NCBI RefSeq assembly: GCF_036346105.1
Contig: NZ_CP107811.1
Coordinates: 4,220,501 to 4,284,500, forward strand
DNA: 64,000 nt
Reading direction: 5' to 3'
Source of the DNA: Streptomyces sp. NBC_00539
GTDB lineage: Bacteria > Actinomycetota > Actinomycetes > Streptomycetales > Streptomycetaceae
Positions 53,957 through 57,744 of the stretch are shown here, piece after piece. Every line of letters begins with the position of its first letter. The stretch's first letter is position 1. Position numbers and translations under genes: made by a program. Under the pieces are notes generated by a model. That model was not told the origin of the DNA. It searched no databases and saw only the letters and a program-made list of their open reading frames with translations.

Positions 53957-55252
53957 TCACCGGACCTCGATGAAGGCCTCCGCCTCCCGCGCGGGCCGCT
54001 CCGCCGGGGCCGCGGCCGGGTGGCCCACCGCCACCGCCCCCATCGGGTCCCAGCCCTCGGGCAGCGCCAGCACCTTGCGCACGACGTCCCGGCAGAACAT
54101 CGTCGAGGAGACCCACGCCGAGCCCAGCCGCTCCCCGGCCAGCGCGACCAGGAAGTTCTGGACGCCCGCGCCCATCGCGACCACGAACATCTCCCGCTCG
54201 GCCGCGTCCCGCCGCGCGTGCCCGTAGTCGTGCGCACCGTCCGTCACCATGCACGGCACCACCAGGTAAGGGGCGCCGCGCAGGACATCGCCCCGCCGGA
54301 CCCGCTTGGCGATGGACTCCTCGGACTTGCCGTCGCGCCGCAGGTCCTCCACCCACGCGTCCCGCATCGCGTCGAGCAGCTCCAGCCGAGCCGCCGCCGA
54401 CTCCAGCAGCACGAACCGCCACGGCGTCGTGTGGTGCGGCGCCGGTGCCGTCACCGCCGCCGCCACCGCGCGCCGGACCGCGCCCGGGTCCACCGGCTCC
54501 GCCGTGAAGGCCCGTACGGTACGGCGCTGCGTCACGGCCTCCCGTACGGCCTCCGAGGTGCCGAGCCGGAACATGTCGTCGCCCGCCGGCCGGACCAGGT
54601 CCGCCGCCGAGGAACCCTCACCGAGGAGGTGGGGCAGTCCGCGCACGACGGCCACCGGCAGCCCGGCCGCCTTGCCCTTGACGAGGTCGCCGGCCGCGGC
54701 GAGTTCGTCCGCGGTGGCGACGACCGTCGCGCTCAGCGGGTTGCCGTGCGCGTCGGAGCCGCCCCGCAGGTCGTCCAGTACGCGCACCCCCGCCGCGCCG
54801 ATCGCCACGTCGGTGAGCCCGGTGCGCCAGGGGCGCCCGAAGGTATCCGTCACGATGACGCCCACGTCTACCGCGAGCGCCTCCCGCAGCCCTTCCCGGA
54901 TCGCGGCCGCGGAGGCGTCGGGGTCCTCGGGGAGCAGCAGCACCGTGCCGGGCCCGGTGTTCGAGGCGTCCACGCCGGCGGCCGCCATCACCAGGCCCCG
55001 CCGGTCCTCCACGATCCGCAGGGCGCCCCGGCGGGCGACCACCCGTACCGTCTCGGCGTCTATCGCCTCCTCGCGCGAATCGGCGCGGACGATCCGTCCC
55101 TCCGCCTTGGAAACGATCTTGGACGTGACCAGCAGGACGTCGCCGTCCCGCAGCCCCGGCCCGGCGGCGGCGATCAGGCGGGCGAGGTCGTCACCGGGCC
55201 GGACCTCCGGTATCCCGGGGACGGCGCGCACCTCGTACGAGGGGGCACTCAC
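53957..55252 (-). CDS. fbiB: Coenzyme F420 gamma-glutamyl ligase / dehydro-F420 reductase
   Basis: 431 residues, two domains. Residues about 1-245 are the F420-0:L-glutamate ligase ([76 protein letters not shown]), adding glutamates to the cofactor tail. Residues about 255-431 are an FMN-binding nitroreductase-like domain ([49 protein letters not shown]) that completes F420 by reducing dehydro-F420. This fused form is typical of actinobacteria. GTG 55252 overlaps the fbiA stop by four bases. Confidence 0.96.
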
Positions 55253-56208
55253 CGGGAGGCCTCCGCCAGCTCCAGCGCGGCGCGGGCCATCGCGGCCGTG
55301 GCAGCGGTGTCGGTCATCATCAGCGGTACCGCGCGGCAGGCGATCCCGGCGGCCTCCACCTCGGCGACGGCGTCCGCGTCGGCGGTGTCGACGAGCCAGC
55401 CGTCGAGCAGCCCGGTCCCGTAGTGCAGGGCGACCGCGGCGGCGGTGGACTCGACGCCCACGGCGGCCAGCACCTTGTCCGCCATCCCGCGCACGGGGGC
55501 GCCCCCGACGATGGGGGAGAGGCCGACGACCGGCGCCCCGGCGGCGGCCACGGCCTCCCGGATGCCGGGCACGGCGAGGATGGTGCCCACCGACACGACG
55601 GGGTTGGACGGCGGGAAGATGATCACGTCGGCGGCGGCGATGGCCTCCAGCACGCCGGGCGCCGGCTTGGCCTGTTCGGCGCCGACGGGCACCACGGCCT
55701 CGGCGTCGACGCAGGCGCGCATCCGGACCCAGTACTCCTGGAAGTGGACGACCCTGCGCTCGCCGGTCTCGGGGTCGTTGAGGGCGACGTGCGTCTCGAC
55801 GCGGTCGTCGGACATGGGCAGCAGCCGTACGCCGGGCTGCCAGCGGTCGCAGAGGGCCTCGGTGACGGCGCTGAGCGGGTAGCCGGCGCCGAGCATCTGC
55901 GTGCGGACGATGTGGGTGGCGAAGTCGCGGTCGCCGAGGCCGAACCAGGCGGGCCCGACCCCGTACGCCGCGAGTTCCTCCTTGACGGTGAAGGACTCGT
56001 CGGTGCGGCCCCAGCCCTGGTCCTCGTTGATGCCACCGCCGAGGGTGTACATCACCGTGTCCAGATCGGGGCACACCTTGAGCCCGAACAGGTGAATGTC
56101 GTCACCGGTGTTGCCGATGACCGTGATGTCCGCTTCGGGGACGGCGGACTTGAGTCCGCGCAGGAAACGGGCGCCGCCGATACCGCCGGCCAGAACAACA
56201 ATGCGCAT
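55249..56208 (-). CDS. fbiA: 2-phospho-L-lactate/phosphoenolpyruvate transferase (CofD-like)
   Basis: 319 residues. Joins the activated PEP or phospholactate unit to the deazaflavin Fo, making (dehydro-)F420-0. Family blocks: [16 protein letters not shown] at the N terminus, [83 protein letters not shown] and [17 protein letters not shown]. First gene of the fbiA-fbiB operon. A CAGACT hexamer six bases upstream of the ATG would allow a leaderless transcript. Confidence 0.96.
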
Positions 56209-56273
56209 GCGGCCAGTCTGTCAGCCGGCCGCGCGCCGTCGCCCCGGGGTGGCGGCGCGGCGGCCGCGGGGCG

Positions 56274-56840
56274 TCAGGCGCCCACCGGGGCGTCGGCGAG
56301 GGCCTCGGGCCGGGCCGGGGAGCAGCTGTGCATGGGCATCTCGGTCAGGCCGGGGTAGTAGACGTGCAGGCTGACGGCTCCGTCGAGGGTGTCGTTGACG
56401 ACCTCGTGGGCGTAGCCGGGGGCGAAGACGCGCTGGGCCCCGGCGGTCAGGGTGAGCGGGCCGCGCCGGCCGTGCTCGGTGAGCTCGCCCTCCAGCACGG
56501 TCAGCACGCCGGAGGAGTCACCGTGGTCGTGCAGGCCGCTGCCCTGCCCGGGGACCCAGCTGAGCAGCCACACCTCGTAGCCGGGTCCGGTGCGCAGGCG
56601 GTGGTACCAGCGGGTGGTGGCGTCGTAGCGCACCAGGTGCTCCCACTGGGTGCGGTCGGCGGCGATGGAGCGGGCGAGGCCCACGAACTCGGCGACGGTG
56701 GCCGGGTGTTCGCGGGCGGGCTGGAGCAGGTGCTGCACGGAGAGGATGTCGCCGGCGATCTGGAGGTCGCTCTCGACCACGGCGGGGGCGGCGGCACCGG
56801 TCGCGGGGGCGGCGGCGCTGTGCTGGGAGGTGCTGTTCAT
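56274..56840 (-). CDS. Cysteine dioxygenase
   Basis: 188 residues. Iron-dependent oxidation of L-cysteine to cysteine sulfinate, limiting toxic free cysteine; cytoplasmic cupin. Ligands are His104 and His106 in GSGLHDHGDSSGV and His145 in GYAHEVVN; Tyr161/Tyr162 of VYYPG sits where the active-site tyrosine is expected. ATG 56840 follows GAGGA. The gene is preceded, 86 bases upstream, by a 28-codon ORF rich in Cys codons that probably controls it in response to cysteine supply. Confidence 0.93.
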   Translation of the reverse strand: MNSTSQHSAAAPATGAAAPAVVESDLQIAGDILSVQHLLQPAREHPATVAEFVGLARSIAADRTQWEHLVRYDATTRWYHRLRTGPGYEVWLLSWVPGQGSGLHDHGDSSGVLTVLEGELTEHGRRGPLTLTAGAQRVFAPGYAHEVVNDTLDGAVSLHVYYPGLTEMPMHSCSPARPEALADAPVGA

Positions 56841-56926
56841 CGGGGGAGTCCTCGACGGATGTCAGTCGTGCTGGCGGTCGCTGTGGGGGTAGCCGGTTGC
56901 TCGGAGGAGGCGGGGCTCCTGAGGCA

Positions 56927-57013
56927 TCAACAGCTGCAACAGCGACAGCGAACCTGGGCAGCGCACAGGAACCCACGAATGGGGGTCCGGGTGGCGGCTG
57001 CGGGCGCTGACAT
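56927..57013 (-). CDS. Polycysteine leader peptide upstream of cysteine dioxygenase
   Basis: A 28-residue ORF beginning with ATG at 57013. Its last twelve residues are CAAQVRCRCCSC: five cysteines in total, four of them in the final six positions, immediately before TGA. Cysteine is otherwise very rare in these proteins, so chance is unlikely. There is no ribosome-binding site before the ATG. TTGACA lies on the minus strand at 57050-57045, so the transcript may start at or near the ATG. Between its stop and the dioxygenase start, a CCTCCTC stretch could pair with the GAGGA ribosome-binding site. Expected role: translation speed through the Cys codons sets dioxygenase expression. Confidence 0.75.
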   Translation of the reverse strand: MSAPAAATRTPIRGFLCAAQVRCRCCSC

Positions 57014-57377
57014 GCGTACAAGGAGAACGGTTAGGGCGTCGGACTGTCAACCCAATGTCGGCAATGGCCGAAAAGATTCACCTCATCCGGTTACCCGGCG
57101 CGGAGAAAGGTTTGTGCAGTGCCGACCAGGGCATGTGGCGCTGGGTATGGCCCTTCCGACCGATCTCAAACCTCATGGCGTCATCGTGACCGGAATGTGA
57201 TCCGCACCGCATCTTCGGCCGGATCGCAACCACACCCCCGAGTGACGCGTGGGTTCAGGGTGAGGGCGGGAGCTTCGCGGCACCTGTGGCATGTGTCGCG
57301 ATTTTTGGCGATATGAACACTTACGGCATTCGCTTGGTTCCGCAGAGTGAATAAGGGGCCCAATAGCAGACCCCGGC
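57014..57377. other. Divergent intergenic region, no gene
   Basis: About 360 bases between the leader ORF and the whiB promoter. It is AT-richer than the flanks near 57060-57080 and 57295-57360, as expected of regulatory DNA. TTGACA on the minus strand (57050-57045) fits the leader transcript. No further open frame with coding character was seen. Confidence 0.5.
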
Positions 57378-57407
57378 TTGACTGCTCCGGAGCCGCGCAC
57401 TTGTAAT
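57378..57407 (+). promoter_or_regulatory. whiB promoter
   Basis: TTGACT (57378-57383), an 18-bp spacer and TGTAAT (57402-57407): the best match to a housekeeping-type promoter in the window. Predicted start about 57414, giving a leader of roughly 67 bases. Confidence 0.6.
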
Positions 57408-57416
57408 TTCACTCGT

Positions 57417-57442
57417 GTCGTTACGTAGCGATGAGTAACGAC
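57417..57442 (+). promoter_or_regulatory. Inverted repeat GTCGTTAC-N10-GTAACGAC
   Basis: A perfect 8-bp dyad (57417-57424 and 57435-57442) just after the predicted transcription start of whiB and 38 bases before the ATG. It could be an operator or a 5' hairpin in the leader. Confidence 0.6.
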
Positions 57443-57480
57443 AACACCACGGGGACGCACAGACAGAGCGAGGGGCGCAC

Positions 57481-57744
57481 ATGACCGAGCTGTTTCAGGA
57501 ACTGCTGGTCGAGGAGGCGGACGAGGAGCTCGGATGGCAGGAGCGCGCTCTGTGCGCCCAGACCGACCCCGAATCCTTCTTTCCCGAGAAGGGCGGCTCC
57601 ACCCGCGAAGCCAAGAAGGTCTGCCTCGCCTGCGAGGTCCGCTCCGAATGCCTTGAGTACGCCCTCGCCAACGACGAGCGATTCGGCATCTGGGGCGGTC
57701 TCTCAGAGCGCGAGCGCCGCCGCCTGAAAAAGGCAGCCGTCTGA
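57481..57744 (+). CDS. whiB: WhiB sporulation regulator
   Basis: 87 residues, matching the Streptomyces developmental regulator WhiB in length and sequence. Four cysteines that hold a [4Fe-4S] cluster: Cys25 (RALCAQT), Cys48 and Cys51 (KVCLACE) and Cys57 (SECLEY). GIWGG (69-73) and the basic tail ERERRRLKKAAV follow. WhiB works with WhiA to start sporulation septation in aerial hyphae. It has its own promoter with a nearby dyad and a terminator after it. Identity is strong; D/E-rich N terminus MTELFQELLVEEADEELGW is also WhiB-like. Confidence 0.95.
   Translation: MTELFQELLVEEADEELGWQERALCAQTDPESFFPEKGGSTREAKKVCLACEVRSECLEYALANDERFGIWGGLSERERRRLKKAAV

Follow-up and report, generated by a model that had tools for sequence, protein, structure and literature searches.

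A conserved polycysteine leader ORF as a candidate ribosome-read attenuator of a cysteine dioxygenase gene in Streptomyces

Introduction

A short open reading frame (ORF) that ends in a run of Cys codons precedes a putative cysteine dioxygenase gene in Streptomyces sp. NBC_00539, and it puts a question in testable form: when Cys-tRNA runs short, is an enzyme that degrades cysteine switched on or off by its Cys-codon leader? Canestrari et al. are said to have presented, in 2020 (in Mol Microbiol), the polycysteine leaderless short ORFs of mycobacteria as attenuators, in which the ribosome-binding site is reportedly sequestered by RNA, a stalled ribosome displaces the sequestering RNA, and expression rises when Cys-tRNA is short. 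Such mycobacterial ORFs are also described in a further report (PMC9031893).

The reading favoured here is that the Streptomyces ORF controls the dioxygenase gene as a cysteine attenuator, read by the ribosome on a leaderless mRNA, in which a stalled ribosome would switch expression on, and this joint reading is held to be moderately probable. Its two parts differ in strength, in that the leader is very probably an attenuator as such, and expression that rises upon stalling is fairly likely, given an attenuator. What the sequences show is a conserved ORF, its potential to pair with the dioxygenase start and a codon choice in keeping with that pairing; translation, stalling, the leaderless start and the polarity are inferred. 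If true, ribosome-read cysteine attenuation would extend from mycobacteria to a genus-wide element of Streptomyces, and a catabolic gene would come under this form of control.

The polycysteine leader ORF and its locus

The window, meaning the whole 64,000-nt stretch of DNA that was analysed, carries the following features:

56927..57013, minus strand: polycysteine leader ORF, MSAPAAATRTPIRGFLCAAQVRCRCCSC, from its translation, with a counterpart in 118 of 121 loci
56930..56947, minus strand: Cys codon tract TGT CGC TGT TGC AGC TGT, abutting the TGA stop, from the sequence
56274..56840, minus strand: putative cysteine dioxygenase gene (CDO_I; Pfam PF05995, E 4.8e-21)
56849..56853, minus strand: GAGGA, Shine-Dalgarno site of the dioxygenase, from the sequence; GAGGA lies at most 22 nt from the start in 87 of the 112 loci with an assigned start

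The ORF comprises 28 codons with a TGA stop and ends 86 nt 5' of the dioxygenase ATG (56840), and its length, position and last twelve residues agree with their description in the initial annotation. The 64-kb window contains 191 ORFs of 15-50 aa, and in no other of these do the final 12 residues include 5 or more Cys; when the window was simulated 30 times with a first-order Markov model, an ORF of this kind never arose. Across the 7.5-Mb genome, four Cys codons in a row close to a TGA were sought by pattern; the search returned 7 forward and 0 reverse sites, and its reversed control 4 and 2.

The 188-aa product of the downstream gene is a CDO_I protein by Pfam, retains by eye the Y-x-R pattern that we take to be the motif of true cysteine dioxygenases, and matches solved chains that carry the name cysteine dioxygenase. 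It is called here a putative cysteine dioxygenase. Its gene is followed on the same strand by cofD, after a gap of 65 nt, and then by an F420 ligase/nitroreductase gene (span 53957-56840, minus strand), and it is divergent from whiB. The whiB gene is divergent in all 80 named loci and cofD lies downstream in 79 of these, the exception (L058) being a short contig end; given this position of cofD directly downstream, coenzyme F420 genes may be affected by the leader too.

The leader peptide of the window had no NCBIfam match at E up to 1, and the NCBIfam models NF042934, NF042933 and NF042936 matched none of six leader peptides, that of the window included, at E up to 10. No Pfam or Rfam model matched the leader element; an Rfam search of 56700-57490 at E up to 10 returned only a weak whalefall-1 match on the opposite strand, and loci L046, L069, L148 and L081 had no Rfam match at the gathering score.

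Conservation across Streptomyces

The sample of 121 loci is comprised of the window, the best 80 of 409 relatives in named genomes, ranked by dioxygenase protein (78 titled Streptomyces and 2 titled Actinobacteria bacterium), and 40 divergent loci of the same genus, chosen from the low-identity rows of two samples rather than at random; loci L083-L144 and L185-L189 were left out of the leader count. A TTGACA hexamer and, 35-37 nt further on, the start codon ATG of a short ORF containing 3 or more Cys are present in 118 of these 121 loci, a layout whose form is partly set by the search, since an exact TTGACA, a nearby ATG and Cys were required, and a count that does not stand for independent trials, since the loci are related and partly picked by similarity. 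The layout is found in all 81 of the window and its 80 best relatives; a plain ORF count gave 78 of 80, to which the promoter-anchored count adds L082 and L076, the latter with a degraded tail.

All 118 leaders stop at TGA and 111 of them end in Cys-TGA, with lengths of 19-49 codons and 3 to 7 Cys each; the 118 leader regions are all distinct and encode 103 distinct peptides, the bodies of which differ between clades. Seven leaders do not end in Cys (for example, ...CRCSSCRSH), and those of L076 and L153 are degraded or odd. Three loci (L146, L172 and L184) keep TTGACA and have no leader ORF, and the third codon of their dioxygenase is AAC, not AGC, possibly through one event. Among 12 more distant homologues, two weak and unconvincing Cys-rich ORFs were seen. 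The leader ORF of the window is real and conserved, and the comparison across Streptomyces that the initial annotation had proposed, for a conserved ORF with terminal Cys codons, bears out its interpretation in part, namely a Cys-codon leader of the dioxygenase that is conserved in the genus and resembles the mycobacterial polycysteine attenuators.

Putative promoter and transcript start

Two hexamers precede the leader ORF:

57045..57050, minus strand: TTGACA, -35-like hexamer, 35-37 nt 5' of the leader ATG in 118 of 121 loci, an exact match being required by the search
57021..57026, minus strand: TCTCCT, non-canonical, putative -10-like hexamer (T[GC]TCCT), 17-18 nt after TTGACA

A column profile over 116 loci reads TTGACA, 17-18 nt, T[GC]TCCT, 7 nt and ATG, where the -10-like element is without its usual A; a sigma-70 consensus scan gave no promoter site within 56780-57490. 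The distance from TTGACA to ATG fits a transcript start at the ATG, and there is no Shine-Dalgarno site 5' of the leader ATG, from which we infer that the mRNA is probably leaderless, with transcription beginning at or very near the A of that ATG. A TTGAC occurs 36-37 nt before the ATG in 3 of the 7 other leaders of the genome that were examined.

The combination of TTGACA with the unusual T[GC]TCCT (57021-57050, minus strand) may depend on an activator or on a different sigma factor. Two conserved blocks, ACAAACCTTTC and one resembling ACCGGATGAGGTGAAAC, lie 5' of the promoter at about 57075-57115 on the minus strand, and are a possible regulator site.

Predicted pairing of the Cys codons with the dioxygenase start

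In clades other than that of the window, the Cys codons of the leader (e.g. CGC UGU CGC UGU UCC) are complementary to the start of the dioxygenase (AUG AAC AGC GAC), and a ribosome on the tract should therefore free that start. The mechanism proposed is that, in ribosome-free RNA of most clades sampled, the Cys codons would pair with the dioxygenase start (AUG-AACAGCGAC) and keep it closed. Ribosomes would translate the leader, whose final codons would require Cys-tRNA; scarce Cys-tRNA would hold a ribosome on the Cys run, breaking the helix and exposing the start, such that a shortage of Cys-tRNA would give more dioxygenase.

The loci were grouped into clade 2 (36 loci), the rest (44 loci) and the window's clade (32 loci with a start assigned), and for each locus we measured the longest contiguous helix, with G-U pairs allowed, that the 3'-terminal 33 nt of the leader can form with the dioxygenase start. 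Starts were assigned by the pattern AAC[A/G] after ATG or GTG, which kept 78 of 81 loci for the codon analysis and 112 of 118 for the promoter profile, folding and helix measure, and which could hide TCN Ser codons. The starts of the six loci dropped for want of an assigned start (L028, L031, L034, L153, L154 and L179) were read by eye as ATGAACAGC in L034, L154 and L179, ATGCGC in L028 and L031, and seemingly ATGCTCAGC in L153, so no TCN codon was hidden by the pattern.

The mean longest helix between tract and start is 12.5 bp in clade 2, where control stretches give 5.5 bp, and 11.2 bp in the rest, where they give 5.4 bp; the first 33 nt of the leader form a helix of only about 4 bp with the dioxygenase start. 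A helix of at least 9 bp is available in 35 of 36 loci of clade 2 and in 38 of 44 of the rest.

Masked folding was used to predict how an occupying ribosome alters the cost of opening the dioxygenase start; the folding model, which does not consistently open the start behind seven further Cys leaders of this genome, is hence yet to be validated on known cases. With a ribosome on the last Cys codon, the predicted cost changes by -3.99 kcal/mol in clade 2 and -3.67 kcal/mol in the rest, and with one on the first by -3.68 and -2.02 kcal/mol, respectively; the control ribosome at codon 10 gives -0.49 and +0.13 kcal/mol. In the rest group, a ribosome at the stop gives -2.58 kcal/mol, and one at the first Cys codon leaves the start more open in 26 of 44 loci and less open by more than 1 kcal/mol in 8 of 44. 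Synonymous recoding of the tract reduces the effect from -3.50 to -1.21 in clade 2 (n=15) and from -3.96 to -1.00 in the rest (n=18), and synonymous recoding of the dioxygenase start reduces it to -1.69 and -1.80 in the same sets. The real sequence exceeds the mean of the tract recodings in 10 of 15 loci of clade 2 and 16 of 18 of the rest, and the mean of the start recodings in 12 of 15 and 15 of 18.

Codon usage on both sides of the helix is in keeping with these values. UGU accounts for 422 of the 599 Cys codons in the 118 leader ORFs, against 0 of 15 in five genes of the window, and residue 3 of the dioxygenase, where it is Ser (76 cases), is always encoded by AGC (the Ser3 codon). The three loci that have no leader carry AAC at this codon, which counts in favour of the pairing. 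The commonest codon has a median frequency of 0.81 over 68 comparable dioxygenase columns, and four other degenerate columns are as codon-conserved as Ser3 (also 0.98). Codon choice favours the pairing of tract and start.

The energy of the whole duplex was tried as a further measure of this pairing and set aside, as the real pair (-26.1) is stronger than its recoded forms (-22.0 and -18.7) and not stronger than pairs with other gene starts (-24.2 to -32.8). An anti-Shine-Dalgarno element in the leader body (GGGUUCCU with AGGAACCC, by eye) was likewise set aside; the window has GAGGACUCCC at that place, and the match is not constant from clade to clade.

The window's own clade

The window belongs to a clade of 35 loci with TP[IV]RG in the leader, in which codon 4 of the dioxygenase is mostly not GAC (ACC in the window). 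The helix between tract and start averages 7.5 bp here, against 5.7 bp, and reaches at least 9 bp in 4 of 32 loci; that of the window is 6 bp. Occupancy of the tract does not open the start in the folding model (mean -0.36 kcal/mol over 32 loci; +0.35 in the window), and a wider start region gives -1.36 for the window and a 15-locus mean of +0.18. The Cys tract of this clade pairs instead with the spacer, at ACAGC[GA]ACC, for which the model gives no last step. The RNA features of the clade are as follows:

56939..56946, minus strand: 5' arm of the tract-spacer helix, GUCGCUGU, from alignment and RNAalifold
56877..56884, minus strand: 3' arm of the tract-spacer helix, ACAGCGAC, with one covarying pair
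56969..56988, minus strand: P1 hairpin (GGACCC...GGGUUC) within the ORF body, from the RNAalifold consensus over 20 of the 35 clade loci
56859..56865, minus strand: CUGACAU, complementary over 7 bp to the leader 5' end AUGUCAG, from the 20-locus alignment

RNAalifold on 20 of the 35 loci returned 53 pairs, and the variable pair of the tract-spacer helix is changed on both sides, with a small covariation term (-0.7); the exact motif occurs in 29 of the 35 loci, and among these the pair is U-A in 15, U-G in 9, C-G in 5 and C-A in 0. The pairs of P1 are nearly invariant over the 20 loci, and a loose CCC...GGG pattern occurs in 106 of the 118 leader ORFs. CUGACAU lies a short way 5' of the Shine-Dalgarno site, and its possible pairing with AUGUCAG, being invariant in the 20 loci, offers no covariation evidence.

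A different mask had been suggested at first, namely that a CCTCCTC stretch after the ORF covers GAGGA. The stretch is indeed present, 15-25 nt past the stop, but it is not conserved as a GAGGA mask: it occurs in 6 of the 118 spacers, and among the 35 of the window's clade the window alone has it; the shorter TCCTC occurs in 25 of 118 and 6 of 35. On this lack of conservation the mask is rejected.

Relation to known leaders

The Streptomyces leader resembles in its layout the polycysteine attenuators of mycobacteria. It has in common with the mycobacterial ORFs a Cys codon run, no Shine-Dalgarno site, a leaderless-type promoter spacing and a downstream gene of cysteine metabolism, the Cys-codon ORF being found 5' of such a gene in 118 of 121 loci; displacement of a start mask by the ribosome is predicted on average for the 80 loci of other clades and not for the 32 of the window's clade. 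It differs in that its target degrades cysteine and that its Cys codons, mostly UGU, are themselves the predicted anti-start sequence in most clades sampled; its host genus is Streptomyces, and its peptide fits none of the NCBIfam leader models.

Candidate leaders of cys operons in Mycobacterium and Propionibacterium acnes, and of cbs in Bifidobacterium, were given by Seliverstov et al. 2005 (PMC1262725). These also have a Cys codon run near the stop and no conserved terminator, but they precede other genes (the cys operon and cbs), and no Streptomyces cysteine leader is named in the part of that report available (PMC1262725). The accessible portion of the S. lividans reannotation gives 8 leader peptides, none named for cysteine and none with a dioxygenase, though the metL peptide has three Cys. 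No Cys leader linked to a Streptomyces cdo was found in the literature surveyed, outside which most subscription journals fall.

The genome of the window also has six matches above cut-off to NF042934, a cis_reg_atten model named 'putative leader peptide'. Leaders of this type precede a sulfite reductase gene, a ThiS-PALP pair, a flavin reductase gene and, by eye, a rhodanese-like gene followed by DUF1416, and one (MTGSDVRLWRRVHMDLLRYAGCVCRPSC, at 1486-1572 of locus L209, G000:C1:2008587-2011643) precedes a second CDO_I gene with a rhodanese. In other genomes of the genus, 11 second dioxygenases were searched by motif, and 7 of them have an HVDL-type leader upstream. The leaders of NF042934, NF042933 (Ms5788A) and NF042936 (Ms4527A) thus share a genome and similar targets with the window leader, a second dioxygenase included, but are HVDL...SAxC-like with mostly few Cys, whereas the window leader matches no NCBIfam model.

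Proposed polarity and alternative readings

In the clades with pairing, a ribosome on the Cys run is predicted by masked folding to open the start, so a long stall should raise expression, a polarity that would match that of the mycobacterial polycysteine attenuators. The folding model, the Cys leaders before the second dioxygenase and published RNA-seq favour this polarity; against it counts that to degrade cysteine while Cys-tRNA is short makes no clear metabolic sense.

The published data can be linked to the locus by gene order. In the window's genome, whiB is flanked on one side by glycosyltransferase, DUF5719 and Zincin_1 genes, the last of which we take to be the former DUF1025, and on the other by the dioxygenase. 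In S. coelicolor, SCO3034 is whiB and SCO3031 a DUF1025 gene linked to SCO3034 (PMC4255298), and SCO3035 should by synteny be the counterpart of the window dioxygenase, if the order around whiB is the same there. Under 0.15 mM H2O2, SCO3035 rises 6.54-fold together with cysNDCHI, cysA, cysM, metI and metN (PMC4991794). The hbpS-senS-senR mutant had no up-regulated genes (PMC4991794), so the induction of SCO3035 may act at the promoter. SCO3035 is mentioned once in the main text of that report, in a table, as 'hypothetical protein', and its co-induction with cys genes seemingly goes undiscussed there (PMC4991794). Two feather studies report cdo up 50.2- and 8.3-fold in Streptomyces (PMC7181669) and up at 96 h, with genes of sulfate reduction and cysteine assimilation rising too (PMC12763843); induction on feather medium can be read either way and does not settle the cysteine state of the cells.

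The best surviving alternative is the one first put forward for this locus, in which the logic had to favour expression with plentiful Cys-tRNA: the ORF would then be finished and the start opened, perhaps with reinitiation, and stalling would keep it closed. This has metabolic sense and gains from the feather studies (PMC7181669; PMC12763843) and from the rest group, where the predicted opening of the start is greater with the ribosome at the last Cys codon or the stop (-3.67 and -2.58) than at the first Cys codon (-2.02). Yet in clade 2 a stall at the first Cys codon has almost the same effect as one at the last (-3.68 vs -3.99), and masked folding opens the start wherever the pairing exists, the window's clade excepted. 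Further points against it are that SCO3035 is co-induced with cysteine biosynthesis (PMC4991794), that the late rise of cdo coincides with a rise of cysteine-assimilation genes (PMC12763843), and that the second dioxygenase has a leader of the cis_reg_atten family that also precedes cysteine-assimilation genes of the genome. The CCTCCTC mask it called upon is not conserved (6 of 118), and the polarity came from metabolic reasoning, with no RNA feature found that gives it. This alternative is judged unlikely.

An arrest-peptide sensor would yield a sensible polarity from the same RNA: high free cysteine would hold the ribosome at UGA, with the tract covered and the start open. TnaC and SpeFL sense a free small molecule in this way via a fixed arrest peptide, and they too are leader ORFs before a catabolic gene, with an arrest peptide in place of a codon run. 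The TGA stop of all 118 leaders and the Cys end of 111 would suit such a sensor, but TGA is the usual stop of Streptomyces anyway, the peptide body varies between clades, 7 of the 118 leaders end in a residue other than Cys, and a Cys number of 3 to 7 fits the counting of codons rather than a fixed arrest motif, all of which makes the sensor quite improbable.

Rho control, with a C-rich spacer as the Rho site and leader translation deciding termination before the dioxygenase, is equally hard to favour, as it leaves the complementarity of tract and start, and its codon bias, unexplained. The spacers of these leaders average 48% C and 24% G, a simple consensus scan reported no intrinsic terminator on the minus strand within 56780-57490, the published changes are at the mRNA level (PMC7181669; PMC4991794), and Rho has been proposed for mycobacterial cys leaders (PMC1262725). 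That the Cys run is not read as a sensor at all, its conservation being that of an RNA/DNA element or inertia, is most improbable: synonymous sites are strongly conserved in the leader region within the window's clade, through RNA/DNA-level constraint or close kinship, and the loci are related, but ATG, a Cys-rich frame and TGA are kept in 118 of 121 loci despite lengths of 19-49 codons and 103 distinct peptides.

Beyond the ribosome-read attenuator with expression raised by stalling, we advance, tentatively and as somewhat short of probable, the broader claim that a Streptomyces cysteine dioxygenase belongs to a cysteine-shortage leader regulon, in which stalled ribosomes would turn it on along with cysteine biosynthesis, with sensor codons that double as antisense to the start. 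If this were true, the enzyme would serve sulfur salvage or redox turnover and not the disposal of excess cysteine.

Outside the leaders counted above, eight loci of a third family had no leader before the dioxygenase. A leader ending in VSAACCCCR, with an NF042934 score below cut-off, lies 5' of a sodium:dicarboxylate-type (SDF) symporter gene in the window's genome (L214, G000:C1:4034174-4037227), and a CCCLCC-type leader, MYQRADRLHHVKLRRVASALCCCLCCRPSL, precedes a dioxygenase homologue in another family of the order (L226, in genome G101).
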